A stretch of DNA of 64,000 bases from Spirochaetaceae bacterium (lineage in GTDB: Bacteria > Spirochaetota > Spirochaetia > Treponematales > Rectinemataceae). The stretch is from contig JANXYO010000067.1 of the NCBI GenBank assembly GCA_025356015.1, positions 1 through 64,000 of the forward strand, in the 5' to 3' direction. Below, one piece after another: positions 28,554 through 36,416 of the stretch. The notes beneath the pieces were generated by a model, which had not been told where the DNA came from, did no database searches, and saw only the letters and a program-made list of their open reading frames with translations. The translations under genes were made by a program, and so were the position numbers. The number at the start of each line of letters is the position of its first letter. Within the stretch, counting starts at the first letter, position 1.

Positions 28554-29105
28554 CTAGGGGTTGTCCTTCTGGCCGACCTCTATCCACTCGGCGAGACTCA
28601 GGGCTAGGGCCGGCACTAGGTAGCTTGTGCAGTAGAGGTAGAGAGCGCCGTTCGATGCCCTCACCTGGGCGATGTCGCGCCCCTCCTCCTGGAGCTCGAG
28701 GGCGCCCACGGTGGCCGCCAGCTCGGACGGTGTGAGTCCGAAGGGCGGGTCCAGGAAGGTCCTCAGGTCGGTGGGCCTGGGGTAGAGCCTCGATTCCTCG
28801 CGCACTGTCTCGGCGACCATGCGCAGGGGGTCCTTCTCCGCGACGTGGAAAAGGTGGACCGCATAGGCGCGGGTCATCGAGAGCTCGCTGAAATAGTATG
28901 TCTCCGTCCTTCCCTCGATGAGCCTGAGGTCGGCTGCTCCCGAGGCTCCCACCAGTGCGGCGATGTCGGCCCTGGGAAAACGCGAGGAGAGGGCCGAGCG
29001 GCAGCAGAGAGCCGCTGCCGCGCTGCTGGCCCTGATCGCCTCCACTATGGCTGCTGGCTCGAGGGCGCCGGAAGGCCCGCCCCCATTTTCTGTCGCTTCG
29101 TCCAT
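28554..29105 (-). CDS. Uncharacterised protein of the aldehyde oxidoreductase operon
   Basis: 183 aa from ATG 29105 (GAAGG just upstream; the longer frame to 29237 would cover the hairpin region and is Ala/Gly/Pro-rich nonsense). Mostly helical by composition, no signal peptide, no metal motif: AALCCRSALSSRFPRADIAALVG, PLRMVAETVREESRLYPRPTDLRTF (read as two blocks), PFGLTPSELAATVGALELQEEGRDI. Size, helical nature and position after an oxidoreductase would fit a TorD/NarJ-like maturation chaperone or a YdhW-like partner. I cannot recognise it by motif. Third gene of the operon starting at 32016. Confidence 0.55.
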   Translation of the reverse strand: MDEATENGGGPSGALEPAAIVEAIRASSAAAALCCRSALSSRFPRADIAALVGASGAADLRLIEGRTETYYFSELSMTRAYAVHLFHVAEKDPLRMVAETVREESRLYPRPTDLRTFLDPPFGLTPSELAATVGALELQEEGRDIAQVRASNGALYLYCTSYLVPALALSLAEWIEVGQKDNP

Positions 29106-29181: not shown

Positions 29182-31302
29182 TTAGGACGGTAGCAGCTTG
29201 CGCCTGGCCAGGTCCTCCGCGACCCCGGCGAGGCCATACATCTCGAGGCTGGCCCGGGTGGGGGCTCCGGTCTTCTCGTCCCAGCCGAACTCCCTGTAGA
29301 GCATAGTCTGGGCGAGGGCCATGTCCTCCTCGGTCATCTGGATGGTGCCGGGAGTGAACTGCGGGATCTCCTTGCCTTCCTTGTCCTTGTCGGCCTTGGT
29401 GATCCACTTGTTCATGTGGTCGTGGCCGGCTCGCAGGTCGGCATCCCCCATCTGCCGCACGGTGATCGCGCGGAAGAGGGTGAAGCAGCGGGCTGCAGCC
29501 TCGTCGAGCTCTTTCTCCGTCATCTTGATGCCGGTGGCCAGGCTGAAGAACTTGGCCTCGAGGCCGGTGTCGCCGCGGTAGCCCCTCTCCTTGTCGTGGC
29601 TCACCGACATGGGCCACATCCAGTTGCATACGGTGAGGGAGTTGTGGAGGATGCTGCGCTTGAGGGCCCAGGCGGCGAAGCGGGCCTTGAAGGTATTCAT
29701 CGGCTTGTAGTCATTCGGGGGATCCAGGGCATCGGGAGAGCCGAAGATCTCCCCCGCGATCTCCTTCTGGATCTTGATCGGGAGCTTGGAACCGATGAAG
29801 TTCATGTGAGAGTGGTTCTGGGCGTCCCGGTTGGAGAAGCAGGAGATGAGGGCGCCGACCTGGGCCCCCGCCTCGTTGGAATGGTGGACAGGGTAGCCGC
29901 CACGGGTCCAGAGCTTGCCGTTCTTGTCGTTCCAGTAGTCGTCGCCGAGGCCCCAGCGCAAGGCGATGGCAGCCGAGCCGTCGCCGATGTGGGAGAACTC
30001 TCCCTTCTTGAAGGCGACGCGGTCGTAGAAGTCGATCAGGAAGGTCGCATCGCCCTTCACAAGCTTTTCCCAGGGGATGGAGGCGTACTCGTCGGCGGGA
30101 AGGACTCGCTTGAACACGCCCTTGTCCCAGCAGTACTTCAGGTCGCGGCCGATCTGGGCATAGTTGCACCAGACTCCGTAGTCGTCGGCGAGGGTGGTGC
30201 CGATCGCATTGCCGACGATGTTGGAATCCTCGCCGTGGCCGTCGAAGTCCTTGATGCCATTGAACATGACCCCGCGCGGGCCCGACCAGCCGACGCAGGT
30301 GTTGGCCACGTAGGGGTCCATGCCGTACTTCTCGAGCTGGGGAACCTTGAGCTGGGAATGGCAGCGGATCGGGCAGTGGGAGCAGCCGCCCATGCGGACA
30401 GTGTACTTCTCGGCCCCGGGGCCGAGGTCGAAGATGGCCTTCTGGGTGCGCAGGCCCACGCTCTGCATGTCCTTGGGATTGCACTCGCCGGTCTCCACGG
30501 GCGGGTTGGCAGCGCCCCAGAAGAGGCCCTTGCGGGCTGTCCAGCGCGAGGACTTGTCGGAGAACTCCGCCCAGGGCTGGGGGGTCGTCGGGACGACCAT
30601 CTGGTTGTTCGCCCCGATGATGCTCATCATGAACTTGTCGAGCTCCATCCAGTCTTTGCGGTCACCGGCGATCTTCACCGAGCCCGTGCCCCGGACGCCG
30701 ATGGCCTTGAGCTTCTTCGAGCCCATGACGCCGCCGTGGCCGCCCGCAGAGTGGGAGGCGCCGGTGCGGATGACCGAGAGATTGACCATGTTCTCGCCAG
30801 CCTGGCCAATGGCCGCGGCCTGGGCCTCCTTGCCCATGAAGGAGGCGACCATGGCCTGGGTGTCGAAGATGCCCTTGCCCCACATCCAGCGCGCATCCTC
30901 GATCGTGACCTTCTCGTCCTCGATTCGGAGCCAGACCGGGTTGGCGGCCTTGCCCTCGACGACGATCATGTCCCAGCCCGCATACTTGAGCTCGGTCGCG
31001 AAATAACCGCCCATGTGGGAGCTCGACACGCCGTTGAAGGGGCTCGTGGGGAGGAGGGATGTTATGTTGGTCCTGCCGGAGCAGGGGACTCCGGTGCCGC
31101 AAAGGGGGCCGGTGCCAAAGATGATCTTGTTCTCGGCATCGTAGGCCTTGGTGCCGGGGTCCACCTCGTCCCACATGATCTTCATCGACATGCCCTCGCC
31201 GCCGATGAAGTCCTTGTACTTGAGCGTCTCGTCGGTGCTGATCTTGCCCGTCGTGAGGTCGACGCGGAGGATCTTGCCTGAGTATCCGAATATCTGTGCC
31301 AT
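29182..31302 (-). CDS. Aldehyde:ferredoxin oxidoreductase family tungsten/molybdenum enzyme (YdhV-like)
   Basis: 706 aa, full length for the AOR family. Such enzymes hold a bis-tungstopterin (or Mo) and one [4Fe-4S] cluster and oxidise aldehydes or reduce acids and related compounds. N-terminal AOR domain (FGYSGKILRVDLTTGKI, GTGPLCGTGVPCSGRTN), pterin-binding stretch SHSAGGHGGVMGSKKLKA, and cluster ligands C307, C310, C314 (GCSHCPIRCHS) plus C488 (ALISCFSNRD). No signal peptide, so it is cytoplasmic unless carried by its partner. Pairing with a Tat-type ferredoxin subunit recalls ydhV/ydhY of enterobacteria. Substrate unknown. Confidence 0.9.
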   Translation of the reverse strand: MAQIFGYSGKILRVDLTTGKISTDETLKYKDFIGGEGMSMKIMWDEVDPGTKAYDAENKIIFGTGPLCGTGVPCSGRTNITSLLPTSPFNGVSSSHMGGYFATELKYAGWDMIVVEGKAANPVWLRIEDEKVTIEDARWMWGKGIFDTQAMVASFMGKEAQAAAIGQAGENMVNLSVIRTGASHSAGGHGGVMGSKKLKAIGVRGTGSVKIAGDRKDWMELDKFMMSIIGANNQMVVPTTPQPWAEFSDKSSRWTARKGLFWGAANPPVETGECNPKDMQSVGLRTQKAIFDLGPGAEKYTVRMGGCSHCPIRCHSQLKVPQLEKYGMDPYVANTCVGWSGPRGVMFNGIKDFDGHGEDSNIVGNAIGTTLADDYGVWCNYAQIGRDLKYCWDKGVFKRVLPADEYASIPWEKLVKGDATFLIDFYDRVAFKKGEFSHIGDGSAAIALRWGLGDDYWNDKNGKLWTRGGYPVHHSNEAGAQVGALISCFSNRDAQNHSHMNFIGSKLPIKIQKEIAGEIFGSPDALDPPNDYKPMNTFKARFAAWALKRSILHNSLTVCNWMWPMSVSHDKERGYRGDTGLEAKFFSLATGIKMTEKELDEAAARCFTLFRAITVRQMGDADLRAGHDHMNKWITKADKDKEGKEIPQFTPGTIQMTEEDMALAQTMLYREFGWDEKTGAPTRASLEMYGLAGVAEDLARRKLLPS

Positions 31303-31320: not shown

Positions 31321-32016
31321 TCAGGCGGTGGCGCCGCTCACGACGTCGGCTCCCCAGAGGAGCTTCTCGGCCTCGGCGATCGGGTAGAGCTTCAGGGCGC
31401 CCGTGGGGCAGGCCTTCGCGCATACGGGATCACCGTCGCAGGTCGTGCACTTGGTGGAGATCATGGTCTCCCTGTCGAGGGTGGCGATGTGCCAGGGGCA
31501 GGCCGTCTGGCAGGCCCCGCAGCCCACGCACTTCCTCGCATCGACGACCCGGGCCCCTGTCTTCCTGTCGGCATGGATCGCCCCGGTGGGGCAGGCATTG
31601 CCACAGGCGGGCTTCTCGCACTGCCGGCAGGTCTCGGCCACGATGCGGAAGTTGCCGAGCTGGCCGTCGGCCTTCGCGTAGGCGGAACTGACGCCCTTCA
31701 CGCCGAAATTCAGGTTGCGGCTGACCTTGACGCGGGAGATGTGGGCCGAGGCCTTCCCGTCGTTGCGGACGGTGCAGGCGACTTCGCAGCGCTTGCAGCC
31801 GACACAGCGGTTGGGATCGTGCACAAGGGCACCCGCAGGAGTAGCCCAGACGCGCAGCTCCCTGCCCTCCCTCGTGCGGACAGTCGTCGCGCAGCCAAGG
31901 GTGATCATCGCCAGGGCGCCTGCGAGGCCGCCTCCGGCATATTTCAGGAAATCGCGCCGGGAAGTCTGCTTCCCGAGAAGGCCTTCGCCCTCTCTTTTCT
32001 CGGTAGAGTCGCTCAT
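31321..32016 (-). CDS. Ferredoxin-type electron transfer subunit with Tat-like leader (YdhY-like)
   Basis: 231 aa. N-terminal twin-arginine-like motif SRRDFLKYAGGGLAG followed by a hydrophobic stretch, then four cysteine blocks for [4Fe-4S] clusters: CVGCKRCEVAC, CRQCEKPACGNACPTGA, CVGCGACQTACPW, and CTTCDGDPVCAKACPTGA, the DMSO-reductase-subunit-B/NrfC pattern. It passes electrons to or from the AOR enzyme encoded next. ATG at 32016 is chosen for its GGAGG/AGGAG ribosome-binding site; a start 21 bp upstream is possible. The leader implies export or membrane attachment while the partner lacks one, as in the enterobacterial ydh pair. Confidence 0.88.
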   Translation of the reverse strand: MSDSTEKREGEGLLGKQTSRRDFLKYAGGGLAGALAMITLGCATTVRTREGRELRVWATPAGALVHDPNRCVGCKRCEVACTVRNDGKASAHISRVKVSRNLNFGVKGVSSAYAKADGQLGNFRIVAETCRQCEKPACGNACPTGAIHADRKTGARVVDARKCVGCGACQTACPWHIATLDRETMISTKCTTCDGDPVCAKACPTGALKLYPIAEAEKLLWGADVVSGATA

Positions 32017-32072
32017 CGCTCCTGCCTCCGCATCCACAGGGCGTGGGAGCCCCGCGAAGGAATTGGGTTCGT

Positions 32073-32204
32073 GGACTCCTTTCCGATGCCGGCAGGGGCG
32101 GGAGGCGGCAGGGTTTCCCCGGCCACCTTTGGGCAGGGAGGACCCCCGCCCGAAGACCGCTGGCCCTGGCCTTTGCAGGCTGTAGGCTCCGCGGTTCGGA
32201 GTAC
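32073..32204 (-). promoter_or_regulatory. Candidate Moco/Tuco-type cofactor riboswitch upstream of the AOR operon
   Basis: On the minus strand the leader has a closing helix ACTCC (32202-32198) with GGAGT (32079-32075). Its 3' part matches the known E. coli moaA Moco RNA in layout: a GNRA-like hairpin GGTGGC-c-GGG-gaaa-CCC-t-GCCGCC directly followed by TCCC, then, after a slightly longer spacer, ATCGGAAAGG before the P1 strand (E. coli: CGCCUCCC ... AUCUGGAAAGG). The aptamer ends ~57 nt before the ferredoxin start codon. A tungsto/molybdopterin enzyme operon is a logical target. Identified by eye from remembered consensus; not verified by covariance search. Confidence 0.55.
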
Positions 32205-32351
32205 GATTTTACTGGGCCACCCGGGTGAATCTGACAGATCGGCTCGGGTTTCGTGAGATTGGTACCATGAAGAAGTGGAGCGGTCAAGTAATAATTATCT
32301 ATATGTACTTATCTTCATGGAAACCTTCCTGGCGGTGAGCCTGGCAAGCCT
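32205..32351. other. A/T-rich spacer with inverted repeat between LacI gene end and AOR leader
   Basis: This stretch, with the leader, makes the 335-bp gap without a gene. It holds a 9-bp inverted repeat, CCATGAAGA (32265-32273) and TCTTCATGG (32312-32320), separated by 38 bp of A/T-rich sequence. That is unusual in this GC-rich window and looks like a regulator or promoter region for the AOR operon. TTGACC (32287-32282, minus strand) and TAAAAT (just upstream of the aptamer) are possible promoter pieces, but I cannot pair them convincingly. Confidence 0.4.
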
Positions 32352-33389
32352 TTAGAAGGACTGGCGGATCTTGATCGAGGGGTCGATGAGGAAGTTCTTC
32401 TCCTTCGGCGAGCTGTGGGCCACGAGACGCTCGAAGGCGATCCTGACAGCGCGGTAGCCCTGGTCCTCGGGCTCCTGGCAGATAGTCGCGAGAATGCCCC
32501 CGTCGTTGATGGCCTCCATGATGGGCTTCGCGAGGTCGACGGAGACGATCTTGAGTTTGCGGTAGAGGCCCAGGTCCTTGACCGCCCTGAATCCGCCGAC
32601 GAGGCCTCCTGTGGCATAGAACAGGCAGTCTATGTCGGGATGCTTCCTCAGCATGTCGAGGGTCAGGCTGTAGGCCAGGTCCTCGTCGCTCGGTATCTCG
32701 ACGACCTCCACGAGGGTCATGCCCATATACTCGGTCTCGATGGCCGCCTTCAGTCCCAGGAATCTGAGCTTGATGCTCTGCATGGTAAGGGGAGGCGAGA
32801 TCATCCCGATCCTCGCCCTGTCGCCGGCGAGGAGGCGGAAGAGCTCGGCGGCCATCTTGCCCGACTTGAAATAGTCGCAGCCCACATAGCAGAGGTAGTC
32901 GGTACGGTCGAGGAAGTTGGTCAGGTAGACTACGGGGATCCCCTCGGCCGCGAGAGCGTTGATCCGCGAGACGATGCGCTCGTCGCTCATCGGGATCAGG
33001 ATGATCGCCTTGAAGCCCTCGCTCACGGCCTCGTCGATGTTCCGCAGCTGGGCCTCCACGCTGAAGTTCGCGCCCCGCTTGATGGCGATCGAGATGCCGA
33101 AATCCTTGATCTCCCCGGCCGCCTTCTCCATGCCCTTGATGACATCGTCATAGAACAGGTTGCCCTGGACGTGGAGGATGGCGCAGATCTTTATGTCGCG
33201 TCTCTGGGTGGCCAGGGACTTGGCAACGGTGTTCGGCTGGTAGTTCAGGGCCTTGGCGATCTCCTCGACCCGCCTTGCGATCTCGGGCTTTACCCTGCCC
33301 CGTCCGTTCAGGACGCGGTCCACCGTGCCGCGGGAGATTCCGCAGAGCTCGGCGATCATCTTCAGGGTGGGTCTCGGGGACTTGGTCAT
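32352..33389 (-). CDS. LacI-family transcriptional regulator of the sulfatase operon
   Basis: 345 aa. N-terminal LacI HTH (residues ~7-55: PTLKMIAELCGISRGTVDRVL, hinge YQPNTVAKSLATQ) plus a sugar-binding-protein-like effector domain with GMEKAAGEIKDFGISIAIKRG, AIILIPMSDERIVSRI and VVYLTNFLDRTDYLCYVGCDY. Subtype resembling regulators that bind inducers directly. Last gene of the sulfatase/ABC operon, only 3 bp after the sulfatase gene, and probably autoregulatory through the palindrome GTGTGCACGTGCACAC at 40713-40728, which has the central CG typical of LacI operators. Confidence 0.9.
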   Translation of the reverse strand: MTKSPRPTLKMIAELCGISRGTVDRVLNGRGRVKPEIARRVEEIAKALNYQPNTVAKSLATQRRDIKICAILHVQGNLFYDDVIKGMEKAAGEIKDFGISIAIKRGANFSVEAQLRNIDEAVSEGFKAIILIPMSDERIVSRINALAAEGIPVVYLTNFLDRTDYLCYVGCDYFKSGKMAAELFRLLAGDRARIGMISPPLTMQSIKLRFLGLKAAIETEYMGMTLVEVVEIPSDEDLAYSLTLDMLRKHPDIDCLFYATGGLVGGFRAVKDLGLYRKLKIVSVDLAKPIMEAINDGGILATICQEPEDQGYRAVRIAFERLVAHSSPKEKNFLIDPSIKIRQSF

Positions 33390-33392
33390 GCT

Positions 33393-34881
33393 CTAGGCTT
33401 CTTCCTCGAGCCACTGTACCGTTTCCCAGACTCTTTCGCCATCGTTCGCCTGGGGGGCGCCCGGGGTGGTCCTGCCCCGCCTGACGCAGTCCGCGAGGAG
33501 CCTGCGGTAGGCCGTGTAGAGCTCTGGCCGCTCCTCGATGATGTTCCGCCTCTCGCCTATGTCGGTCTCGAGGTCGTAGAGCTGGAATTCGGGCATCGCG
33601 TCGGTCCAGGCCTCGACGCTCATGAGGCTGGGGTTCGGCATGGGTCCCGTCTCGCCCCCGGAACCGGGGCACATCTCGAGCTTGTAGCGTCCCATGCGCA
33701 GGGAGAGTGAGCCGTCGTAGCTCTGGTGGATGATGTGCTCCCTGACCTCGCCCCCATCGGGATCGAGCCAGAGGGGAAGGTTCGAGACGCTGTCCTCCCC
33801 CGCCGATTCAGGCAGAACCACGCCCAGGAGCTCGGCCATCGTGGCCATGAGATCGCCGAGGCAGACGATGCCCGCTCTGACCTTCCCGGCCGGTATGGCG
33901 GCCGGCCAGCGGATCAGCAGCGGTATGCGGTGGCCTCCCTCCCAGATGTCGAACTTGTGCCCACGGAAGACATAGCTCGGGTTGTGGCCATGCCGCCTGA
34001 GCTCCTCGAAGTCGGCCATGGGAGAGCAGCCGTTGTCGGAAGTGAAGATGAGGATGGTGTTCTCGTAGAGCCCTGTGGCCTTGAGCTTCTCGGTGATCGT
34101 GCCAACGACGGCGTCGCACATGAGGACGAAGTCCCCGTATGCGTTCGTGCCCGATTTCCCGCGGAACTCCTTCGAGGGCAGGATGGGCGTGTGGGGGGCG
34201 GGCAGGGGGAAGTAGATGAAGAAGGGCTCGTCCCTGTACTCGTCGATCTTCCCGCAGACCTTGTCGGTCAGGTGGCCCAGCACCTCCTCGTGGACGAAGT
34301 CGGGAGCAGTAGGGCCCCTGCGCCAGAAGCCCTTGCCCTCGCCCTCGGTCTCGCGGTCCGGAAGATGGGTGAAGCGGTCGTTCTCGATGTAGATGTAGGG
34401 AGGCATGTCGAGTGAGGCCGAGATCCCGTAGTAGTAGTCGAAGCCCTTCGTGACCGGCGAGTCGGCGATCGGTGCGGCGTAGTCGATGCCCGGGCAGGTC
34501 TCGAAACCCTGCCTGAATTCGAAGTCCGGCGTCTTTGCGAAGCCCATGCCCAGGTGCCACTTGCCCACGGCAGCGGTGCGGTAGCCCTCTGCCCTGAACA
34601 GGTCGGCGACCGTCATGCGCCCCGGCTCGATCAGGGCTTCCGAATAGCCGGAGATGACCCCCGACTTGAGCCTCGAGCGCCAGTTGTAGCGCCCCGTCAT
34701 GATGCTGTAGCGCGAGGGAGTGCAGACGGCCGAGCTGGAATGGGCGTCGGAGAACCGGATGCCGCTTTCGCATATCGCGTCGAAGTTCGGGGTCCTGAAG
34801 GGGCATTTCTCGTTCTGGGCCGAGACGTCCCCGTAGCCCATGTCGTCGGAGGATATAGATGAGGTTGGGCCTTGCCCTCAC
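33393..34881 (-). CDS. Formylglycine-dependent sulfatase with an apparent N-terminal frameshift
   Basis: Type I sulfatase hydrolysing sulfate esters. The FGly motif SSAVCTPSRYSIMTGR is intact (Cys at residue 40 counted from the internal ATG at 34841), as are FDYYYGIS and TSDNGCSPM. The expected opening R-P-N-L-I-Y-I-L-x-D-D-M-G-Y-G is split: GTG at 34881 starts RARPNLIYIL in one frame and DDMGYGDVS continues in another. The sequence reads CTC-C-GAC where a whole codon is expected (34847-34851), i.e. two bases missing or one extra. The GTG overlaps the upstream sulfatase stop (GTGA), so it was the original start. Without repair the protein would start at 34841 and lose the first metal-binding Asp pair. 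No signal peptide: cytoplasmic. Confidence 0.82.
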
Positions 34882-36416
34882 GACGCCCCTCCCGTCCTCG
34901 CCTGTGCCTTCGTCCGCGGCCCCGCCTCCAGGCCCATGCGCTGGAACTGCTCGGGCGGGGCATCGTTGTCCCGCATGAGAGCGGCCATGAGGCACTCAAG
35001 CCGCGCCCGGGTCTGGGGATCGTCGAGGCTGTGGCGCTGCTGGGGATCGAGCTCGAGGTCGTAGAGGAAGTCCTGGTGCAGGAAATCGCTCTCCATCATG
35101 CCCGACATCGAGTAGGGCTCCCTTTCGTCCCAGACCCCTGCGTCGACCCTGAGGGTCTGGAGACCCTTGGTGAAGGAGAAAGGCGGAGCCATGACCGCCG
35201 TCCTGAGCTCCTCGACGGTGAAGCGGCGCCTCATGTGCATGGGCACCAGGGTGTACTGGTAGAGCGGCCCGTTGTCGGCCGTCCTCACTCCCCGCATATA
35301 GACGTAGCGGCCGTCGGTGCAGTTCACCGAGCCACCGAACATCCCGAAGAGGGCCGCGCTCCGGACGGGCTTGTCCAAGCTGATGACCTCGCGCAGATCC
35401 CGGCCCTCCATGTCCGGTGGCGGCTCCTTGCCGAAGAAGCCCAGGAGGGTCGGAGGCAGGTCGATGGTCTGGACGATCGAGTTGCGCACCGCGTTGGAGG
35501 CGGCGCAGCGGGGATCCCAGATGAAGAGAGGAGTCAGGGCCACCTCGTTGTAGAAGGGCATCACGAGCTTGCCCCAGTAGTCGTGCTCGGCCAGGAGGAA
35601 GCCGTGGTCGGTGTTCACGATAAGCATCGTGTCCTTCCACATGTCGTGCTCGTCCATGTAGTCCAGGAGCTTCCCGAGGTAATCGTCGCACATGCTGAGC
35701 AGGGCGCAGTACTGCAGCCGCATGTTCTCGGCATCCTGGCGGCTCTCGCTCACCGGCCCGTAGTTCGGCCAGTCGTTCTTGCCGCCATCGAGGCCAGGAT
35801 AGAGGGAGCGGTGCTTCTCGTCGGAAAGGAAGGGCTCGTGGGGATCGAAGCACTCGACATGGAGGAGCCAGTCGTCGGCCTCGTGGTTGGCGTCCAGGAA
35901 GCCGAAGGTCTCGCGGAATACCTTGTCCAGGGGCAGCTCCCCCTCCTTCCCCAGGTACTTCCTGTTCACGGCATCGGCGCGGACAAGGAGACGCTTCTGG
36001 TAGGCGAGGTTCGCAGGCAGGGGCGGGGCCTTGGCCTCGCCCTTCCACTTGTCGCCCTCCTGGCCCCGGATGAACTCATAGGAATTGTAGCGGTTGTGGA
36101 AGGTGGCCCCGCCGTCCTCCCAGTAATGCTGGTGATCGGTGATCAGGTGGGTGTAGACCCCGCCCTCGGTGAGGAGCTCGATCGCGGAATCATCGAAGGG
36201 CTCAAGCGGACCCCAGCTGCGGTGGAGGAAATTGTACCTGCCTGTGTGCAGCTCCCTGCGCGCCGGAATGCAGGGCATGCTGCCTATGAAGCTGCGGTCG
36301 AATCGGACGGTCTTCTCCCCAAGGCGGCGGAAGTTAGGCGTGTGCGTCCAGTCGCAGCCATATGCGGACAGCATATGCCTGTTGAGCGAGTCGAACATGA
36401 GCATTATGGCTTTCAT
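34878..36416 (-). CDS. Formylglycine-dependent sulfatase 2
   Basis: 512 aa, alkaline-phosphatase superfamily. It starts MKAIMLMFDSLNRHMLSAYG without a signal peptide, so it acts in the cytoplasm. FGly motif GSMPCIPARRELHTGR with Cys49 (C-x-P-x-R, a form matured by anaerobic maturases). Metal and substrate residues: LMFDS near the N-terminus, HVECFDPHEPF and NTDHGFLLAEHDYWGK. Closest in feel to sulfatases acting on small sulfated sugars or phosphonate monoesters; the substrate is unknown. It lies between the ATPase genes and the second sulfatase (4-bp overlap). Confidence 0.88.
   Translation of the reverse strand: MKAIMLMFDSLNRHMLSAYGCDWTHTPNFRRLGEKTVRFDRSFIGSMPCIPARRELHTGRYNFLHRSWGPLEPFDDSAIELLTEGGVYTHLITDHQHYWEDGGATFHNRYNSYEFIRGQEGDKWKGEAKAPPLPANLAYQKRLLVRADAVNRKYLGKEGELPLDKVFRETFGFLDANHEADDWLLHVECFDPHEPFLSDEKHRSLYPGLDGGKNDWPNYGPVSESRQDAENMRLQYCALLSMCDDYLGKLLDYMDEHDMWKDTMLIVNTDHGFLLAEHDYWGKLVMPFYNEVALTPLFIWDPRCAASNAVRNSIVQTIDLPPTLLGFFGKEPPPDMEGRDLREVISLDKPVRSAALFGMFGGSVNCTDGRYVYMRGVRTADNGPLYQYTLVPMHMRRRFTVEELRTAVMAPPFSFTKGLQTLRVDAGVWDEREPYSMSGMMESDFLHQDFLYDLELDPQQRHSLDDPQTRARLECLMAALMRDNDAPPEQFQRMGLEAGPRTKAQARTGGAS

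Follow-up and report, generated by a model that had tools for sequence, protein, structure and literature searches.

A probable Moco-class riboswitch in the leader of a spirochaete ydhYVW operon

The leader of a ydhY-ydhV-ydhW operon of a spirochaete, located on the same strand as its genes, is a genuine member of the Moco-class riboswitch family. We assign to this identification a probability of about 0.9, which applies to the identity of the riboswitch and not to the ON or OFF sign of its response; the response to a ligand is taken from family membership. The riboswitch class is already known, and the RNA described here adds a spirochaete ydhYVW operon to it. Positions given without a locus or contig name refer to the window, the whole stretch of 64 kb of DNA that was analysed.

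Identification of the Moco RNA

Scanning the window with cmscan, we detected a match to RF01055 (Moco RNA) on the minus strand that covers the whole model (positions 1 to 135) and scores 52.6 bits for a gathering score of 36 bits. Its E-value, 1e-9 over the window, is 1.1e-11 over a 701-base stretch. RF01055 was the only Rfam family reaching its gathering threshold within the 64 kb; livK, ASpks, FsrA and other weak matches were dismissed, being far below their own cut-offs. The RNA possesses P1, P2, P4 and P5 together with the conserved junction and the GNRA-capped P4, and is placed 5' of genes for an enzyme of the AOR family.

The E. coli moaA leader, used as a yardstick, scored 103.6 bits against the same model. 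Both RNAs share the P1 to P5 order, the GAAA-capped P4 running into CCTCCCG, the P3 stem and GGAAAGG before the P1 closure. They differ in that the RNA of the window scores lower, fronts ydhYVW and not moa, bears an extra GCC/GGC stem on P5 and has a downstream ribosome-binding site that does not overlap P1.

The initial annotation had read a likeness to the E. coli moaA Moco RNA from the interval 32073-32204, which corresponds almost exactly to the P1-to-P1 aptamer. Each of the elements it named was recovered: the P1 helix ACTCC/GGAGT (32202-32198 with 32079-32075, minus strand), the GNRA-type hairpin leading into TCCC (P4, 32128-32103, with its GAAA loop at 32117-32114) and the sequence ahead of the P1 closure, present as ATCGGAAAGG. 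The scan of E. coli moaA confirmed that their order is the same. The two checks that it had suggested, a covariance-model search and a search for compensatory changes in related leaders, both came out in its favour (above and next section). The P3 stem, the identity of the YdhYVW proteins and a second, weaker copy of the RNA in the same genome come in addition to it. All the features are described in Table 1.

Table 1. Features of the leader and of the operon (window positions)
Feature	Position	Strand	Evidence or remark
Moco RNA aptamer (RF01055, whole model)	32060..32213	-	cmscan 52.6 bits, gathering score 36, E 1e-9
P1 5' strand ACUCC	32198..32202	-	RF01055 alignment
P1 3' strand GGAGU	32075..32079	-	RF01055 alignment
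P2 and apical extension	32156..32195	-	two-sided changes in 7/9 scored pairs, 12 leaders
P3 hairpin, GGGCGGGG with UCCCUGCCC, 8 pairs	32131..32151	-	outer 3 pairs all with two-sided changes
P4 hairpin, GAAA tetraloop	32103..32128	-	two-sided changes in 7/11 pairs
P5 with GCC/GGC extension found in most ydhYV leaders	32083..32102	-	alignment and covariation
Shine-Dalgarno-like GGAGGCAGGAG of ydhY	32019..32029	-	sequence; about 45 nt past P1, apart from the aptamer
Weak promoter-like site, 9/12	32294..32323	-	consensus scan only
ydhY-like 4Fe-4S protein, RR (TAT_signal)	31321..32016	-	NF007382, 197 bits, cut-off 213
YdhV-type AOR-family oxidoreductase	29182..31302	-	NF007354, 1069.5 bits, cut-off 868
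YdhW-like protein	28554..29105	-	NF007411, 127 bits, below cut-off 203

Covariation in orthologous leaders

The leaders of 12 orthologous ydhYV operons were aligned and submitted to RNAalifold with no structure supplied. The program recovered P1, P2, P4 and P5; 14 of the 29 pairs that it drew are changed on both sides. After P3 was added by hand, 89.4% of the cells pair and 18 of the 33 pairs show two-sided changes; the outer 3 pairs of P3 are paired in 88.6% of cells over the 12 leaders. Altogether, 49 cells changed on both sides, to be compared with 19.6 in shuffles, and none of 500 shuffles was as high. These shuffles ignore the relatedness of the leaders; relatedness is retained in a second control, in which the partners were slid by one column and pairing fell to about 48%. 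The resulting structure agrees with that of the independently curated family RF01055.

These data bear on the two least favourable interpretations of the match. A chance resemblance could be invoked on account of the high GC content of the sequence (0.66) alone, and is refuted by the covariation control, in addition to the E-value of 1e-9 and the conserved position; we regard it as extremely improbable. A decayed or passenger Moco RNA devoid of function would fit the score, half as high as for E. coli moaA, but all stems are intact, compensatory changes are present and the placement is the same in the 12 orthologous leaders, which makes decay very improbable. When 30 genomes from the family were searched, 18 gave matches to RF01055, and in every one of these 18 a match exceeded the cut-off; of 294 genomes sampled in the order, 54 gave matches, 50 of them with one over the cut-off.

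The ydhYVW operon

The initial annotation had placed an AOR enzyme and a ferredoxin in the downstream operon, and this was borne out by the YdhV and YdhY-like genes. The two proteins share 53% and 44% identity with E. coli YdhV and YdhY, respectively. YdhV passes the equivalog cut-off, and the column of its metal-ligand cysteine, Cys336 in E. coli YdhV (PMC12096430), is invariant in the alignment. On this basis we identify the operon as ydhYVW and its YdhV as what PMC13328260 calls a Class V WOR. Those close relatives of the protein that carry a name come from spirochaete genomes. YdhV requires a bis-pterin cofactor (PMC9103625, PMC12096430).

The E. coli ydhYVWXUT operon (Class V WOR, clade 41) has the same YdhY, YdhV, YdhW order and the same metal-ligand cysteine. 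It differs by the absence of a Moco RNA upstream of ydhY, as determined by an Rfam scan; conversely, no YdhX, YdhU or YdhT gene was seen after ydhW in the window, where the operon ends. Related ydhYVW operons (L030, 7306-8013; L110, 4945-5238) run on into genes for FdhD, of the sulfurtransferase family, and TatA, which suggests that the cofactor is sulfurated and that a partner is exported. Just upstream of the operon of the window lie a LacI-type regulator gene and two adjacent sulfatase genes (32352-36416), with ABC transporter genes beyond.

Distribution of the RNA among ydhYV operons

An RNA model built from the 12 ydhYV leaders was run on 67 YdhV loci. It placed the RNA 5' of ydhY at 11 spirochaete loci, of which several belong to genomes that had contributed to the model. 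Weaker matches in Marispirochaeta (L152) and SZUA-414 (L155) were both confirmed by Rfam; locus L122 was matched by the leader-built model only. No Moco RNA was detectable at four other spirochaete ydhYV loci (L156, L147, L182 and L146). The lack of a detectable RNA in these operons, as in front of E. coli ydhY, counts against our interpretation.

Several Firmicutes (Dielma, Anaerocolumna, Faecalibacterium, Tissierella) also have a Moco RNA physically linked to ydhV, but there it lies inside the cluster, 3' of ydhW and 5' of moeA/moaAC. Such intra-cluster RNAs were located in L163 (7887-8016), L186 (7891-8026), L164 (8003-8137) and L174 (8144-8314).

Our literature search found no paper linking the Moco riboswitch with ydhV, and the 2008 description of the Moco RNA names no spirochaetes (PMC2408646). 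As far as we found, both the placement before ydhYV and the contrast in platform described below are undescribed in the literature searched. The present RNA places the class in a phylum absent from the founding paper, with a platform distinct from that of its sister copies.

Position of the ribosome-binding site relative to P1

Among the RNAs of this order located before genes outside the AOR family, 58 of 71 have a start codon 4 to 8 nt past the P1 3' strand, which then doubles as Shine-Dalgarno sequence. None of the 16 RNAs located before ydhYV (13) or other AOR genes (3) has this spacing (Fisher p=6e-10, phylogeny ignored); these enzyme leaders have a ribosome-binding site of their own farther downstream. 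In the window, the ydhY start lies 58-59 nt downstream of the P1 3' strand, so that P1 does not serve as ribosome-binding site; GGAGCGATGAGCGA at the start is conserved in genomes G003 and G004. The second RF01055-like RNA of the same genome (contig C81, 17792-17946, 34.9 bits) is located 5' of tupA-B-C-moeA-moaA-moaC, with a start codon 6 nt past the P1 3' strand. At this distance a closed P1 would make the ribosome-binding site inaccessible, as has been described for E. coli moaA (PMC2408646).

The mechanism that we propose would proceed as follows. Folded in the leader of the ydhYVW mRNA, the Moco-class aptamer, P3 included, would bind a pterin metal cofactor, and binding would set the expression of YdhV, itself dependent on a bis-pterin cofactor. 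Against this reading, direct ligand binding had not been demonstrated in 2008 even for the E. coli moaA leader (PMC2408646). Because no terminator-like site was found in the window leader when an intrinsic terminator was sought as platform, control would probably be translational, exerted by the stretch that separates P1 from the remote ribosome-binding site. We favour a sign in which the cofactor promotes ydhYVW expression (ON), since the OFF design of the uptake and synthesis genes, with P1 acting as Shine-Dalgarno sequence, is consistently missing from the enzyme genes. When ensembles were folded with P1 enforced or opened, the exposure of the ribosome-binding site shifted in no consistent direction, so that the choice between ON and OFF comes from this contrast in design only.

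An ordinary OFF switch, in which the ligand-closed P1 would free a downstream hairpin to hide the ydhY ribosome-binding site, has a substantial though less than even chance of being correct. E. coli moaA, the sole tested case, represses (PMC2408646). One spirochaete clade (G063, G072, G069 and G057) exhibits a small hairpin immediately 5' of the start, in which part of the Shine-Dalgarno sequence is paired and compensatory changes were seen by eye. The start-proximal hairpin is different in the window's own family, however, the predicted exposure of the Shine-Dalgarno sequence does not consistently drop on P1 closure, and one would less expect a cofactor to repress the enzyme that uses it. Keeping the ON sign for ydhYVW, we tentatively propose that one aptamer class could act with opposite signs in one cell, OFF on uptake and synthesis genes where P1 hides the site, and ON on AOR-family enzymes through a detached platform. 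An enzyme leader and an uptake leader within one genome would show cleanly whether the same aptamer gives opposite outputs.

Molybdenum or tungsten cofactor

Regulski et al. (2008) tied P3-containing RNAs to molybdenum genes and P3-lacking RNAs to tungsten genes (PMC2408646). The RNA of the window shares its aptamer core with the P3-lacking (Tuco-type) RNAs but, like the spirochaete ydhYV leaders of its group, it has the P3 stem of the Moco-sensing subtype. Three other AOR genes in the order (G058, G113 and G057) carry seemingly P3-lacking RNAs, and the G057 genome also has a ydhYVW leader with P3. The Marispirochaeta ydhYV leader has no P3, and thus the trait is not fixed among ydhYV operons. 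P3 presence was scored over 88 RNAs with a script that put P2 or P4 in the wrong place in several of them and whose two versions disagree for some leaders; it was trusted only for RNAs of unambiguous sequence, and the alignment was used for the ydhYV leaders.

The metal of the YdhV clade varies: E. coli YdhV prefers molybdenum (PMC13328260, PMC9103625), and a YdhV-type Class V WOR of an organism that carries Tup has a preference for tungsten (PMC13328260). The window's genome (99% complete) encodes one TupA-like protein, whose 225 bits fall short of the strict cut-off, and profile searches gave no match to ModA or WtpA at E<=0.001. It also contains six AOR-family genes, with three DMSO-reductase-type and seven xanthine-dehydrogenase-type domain matches. 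We rejected the argument that a genome lacking ModA must use tungsten, because the latter two domain types are also encoded. From this gene set both metals are likely in use, which leaves the ligand uncertain.

It is conceivable, though rather unlikely, that the tungsten cofactor (Tuco) is what the RNA senses and that YdhV is here a tungstoenzyme. The TupA-like protein, the ModA and WtpA searches, the six AOR-family genes and the tungsten preference of the enzyme from the Tup-bearing organism would all accord with it. Against it stand the P3 stem, tied by Regulski et al. to Moco only, the seven xanthine-dehydrogenase-type matches, by which molybdenum is probably used, and the molybdenum preference of E. 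coli YdhV. The ligand would therefore most likely be Moco, and possibly the tungsten form. The initial annotation had envisaged a cofactor-controlled tungstoenzyme operon; the riboswitch stands, with RF01055 and covariation behind it, and the tungstoenzyme does not follow, as the metal varies within the clade. Both the metal of Class V WOR, molybdenum or tungsten, and its role are debated (PMC13328260), and a riboswitch on the operon would provide a genetic handle on which cofactor the cell matches to YdhV.

Other Moco RNA loci

Moco RNAs, mostly P3-lacking, were found before the gene of a MalE-like ABC solute-binding protein that is extended at its N-terminus by about 130 residues (L034 2118-3763, RNA 2118-2261; L033, L035, L010, L040, L041, L074, L086, L099, L103 and L113). 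In most of these loci an Oxidored_molyb-domain protein (c15) and/or a permease (c9) comes next, making them candidates for a transporter system under Moco/Tuco control.

Others precede an L-glutamate gamma-semialdehyde dehydrogenase gene (TIGR01236, 731 bits), with the P1 strand as ribosome-binding site (L036 3505-5286, L037, L038, L039, L076, L085, L087, L090, L091, L095, L101 and L102). This NAD enzyme has no pterin cofactor, and may possibly be a cofactor-independent dehydrogenase shut off when Moco is plentiful.

Finally, three Moco RNAs (L066, L067 and L069) lie within about 6 kb of each other near tup-type genes (G113, contig C264, 1832-8030) and recall the triple arrangement in Syntrophomonas wolfei.
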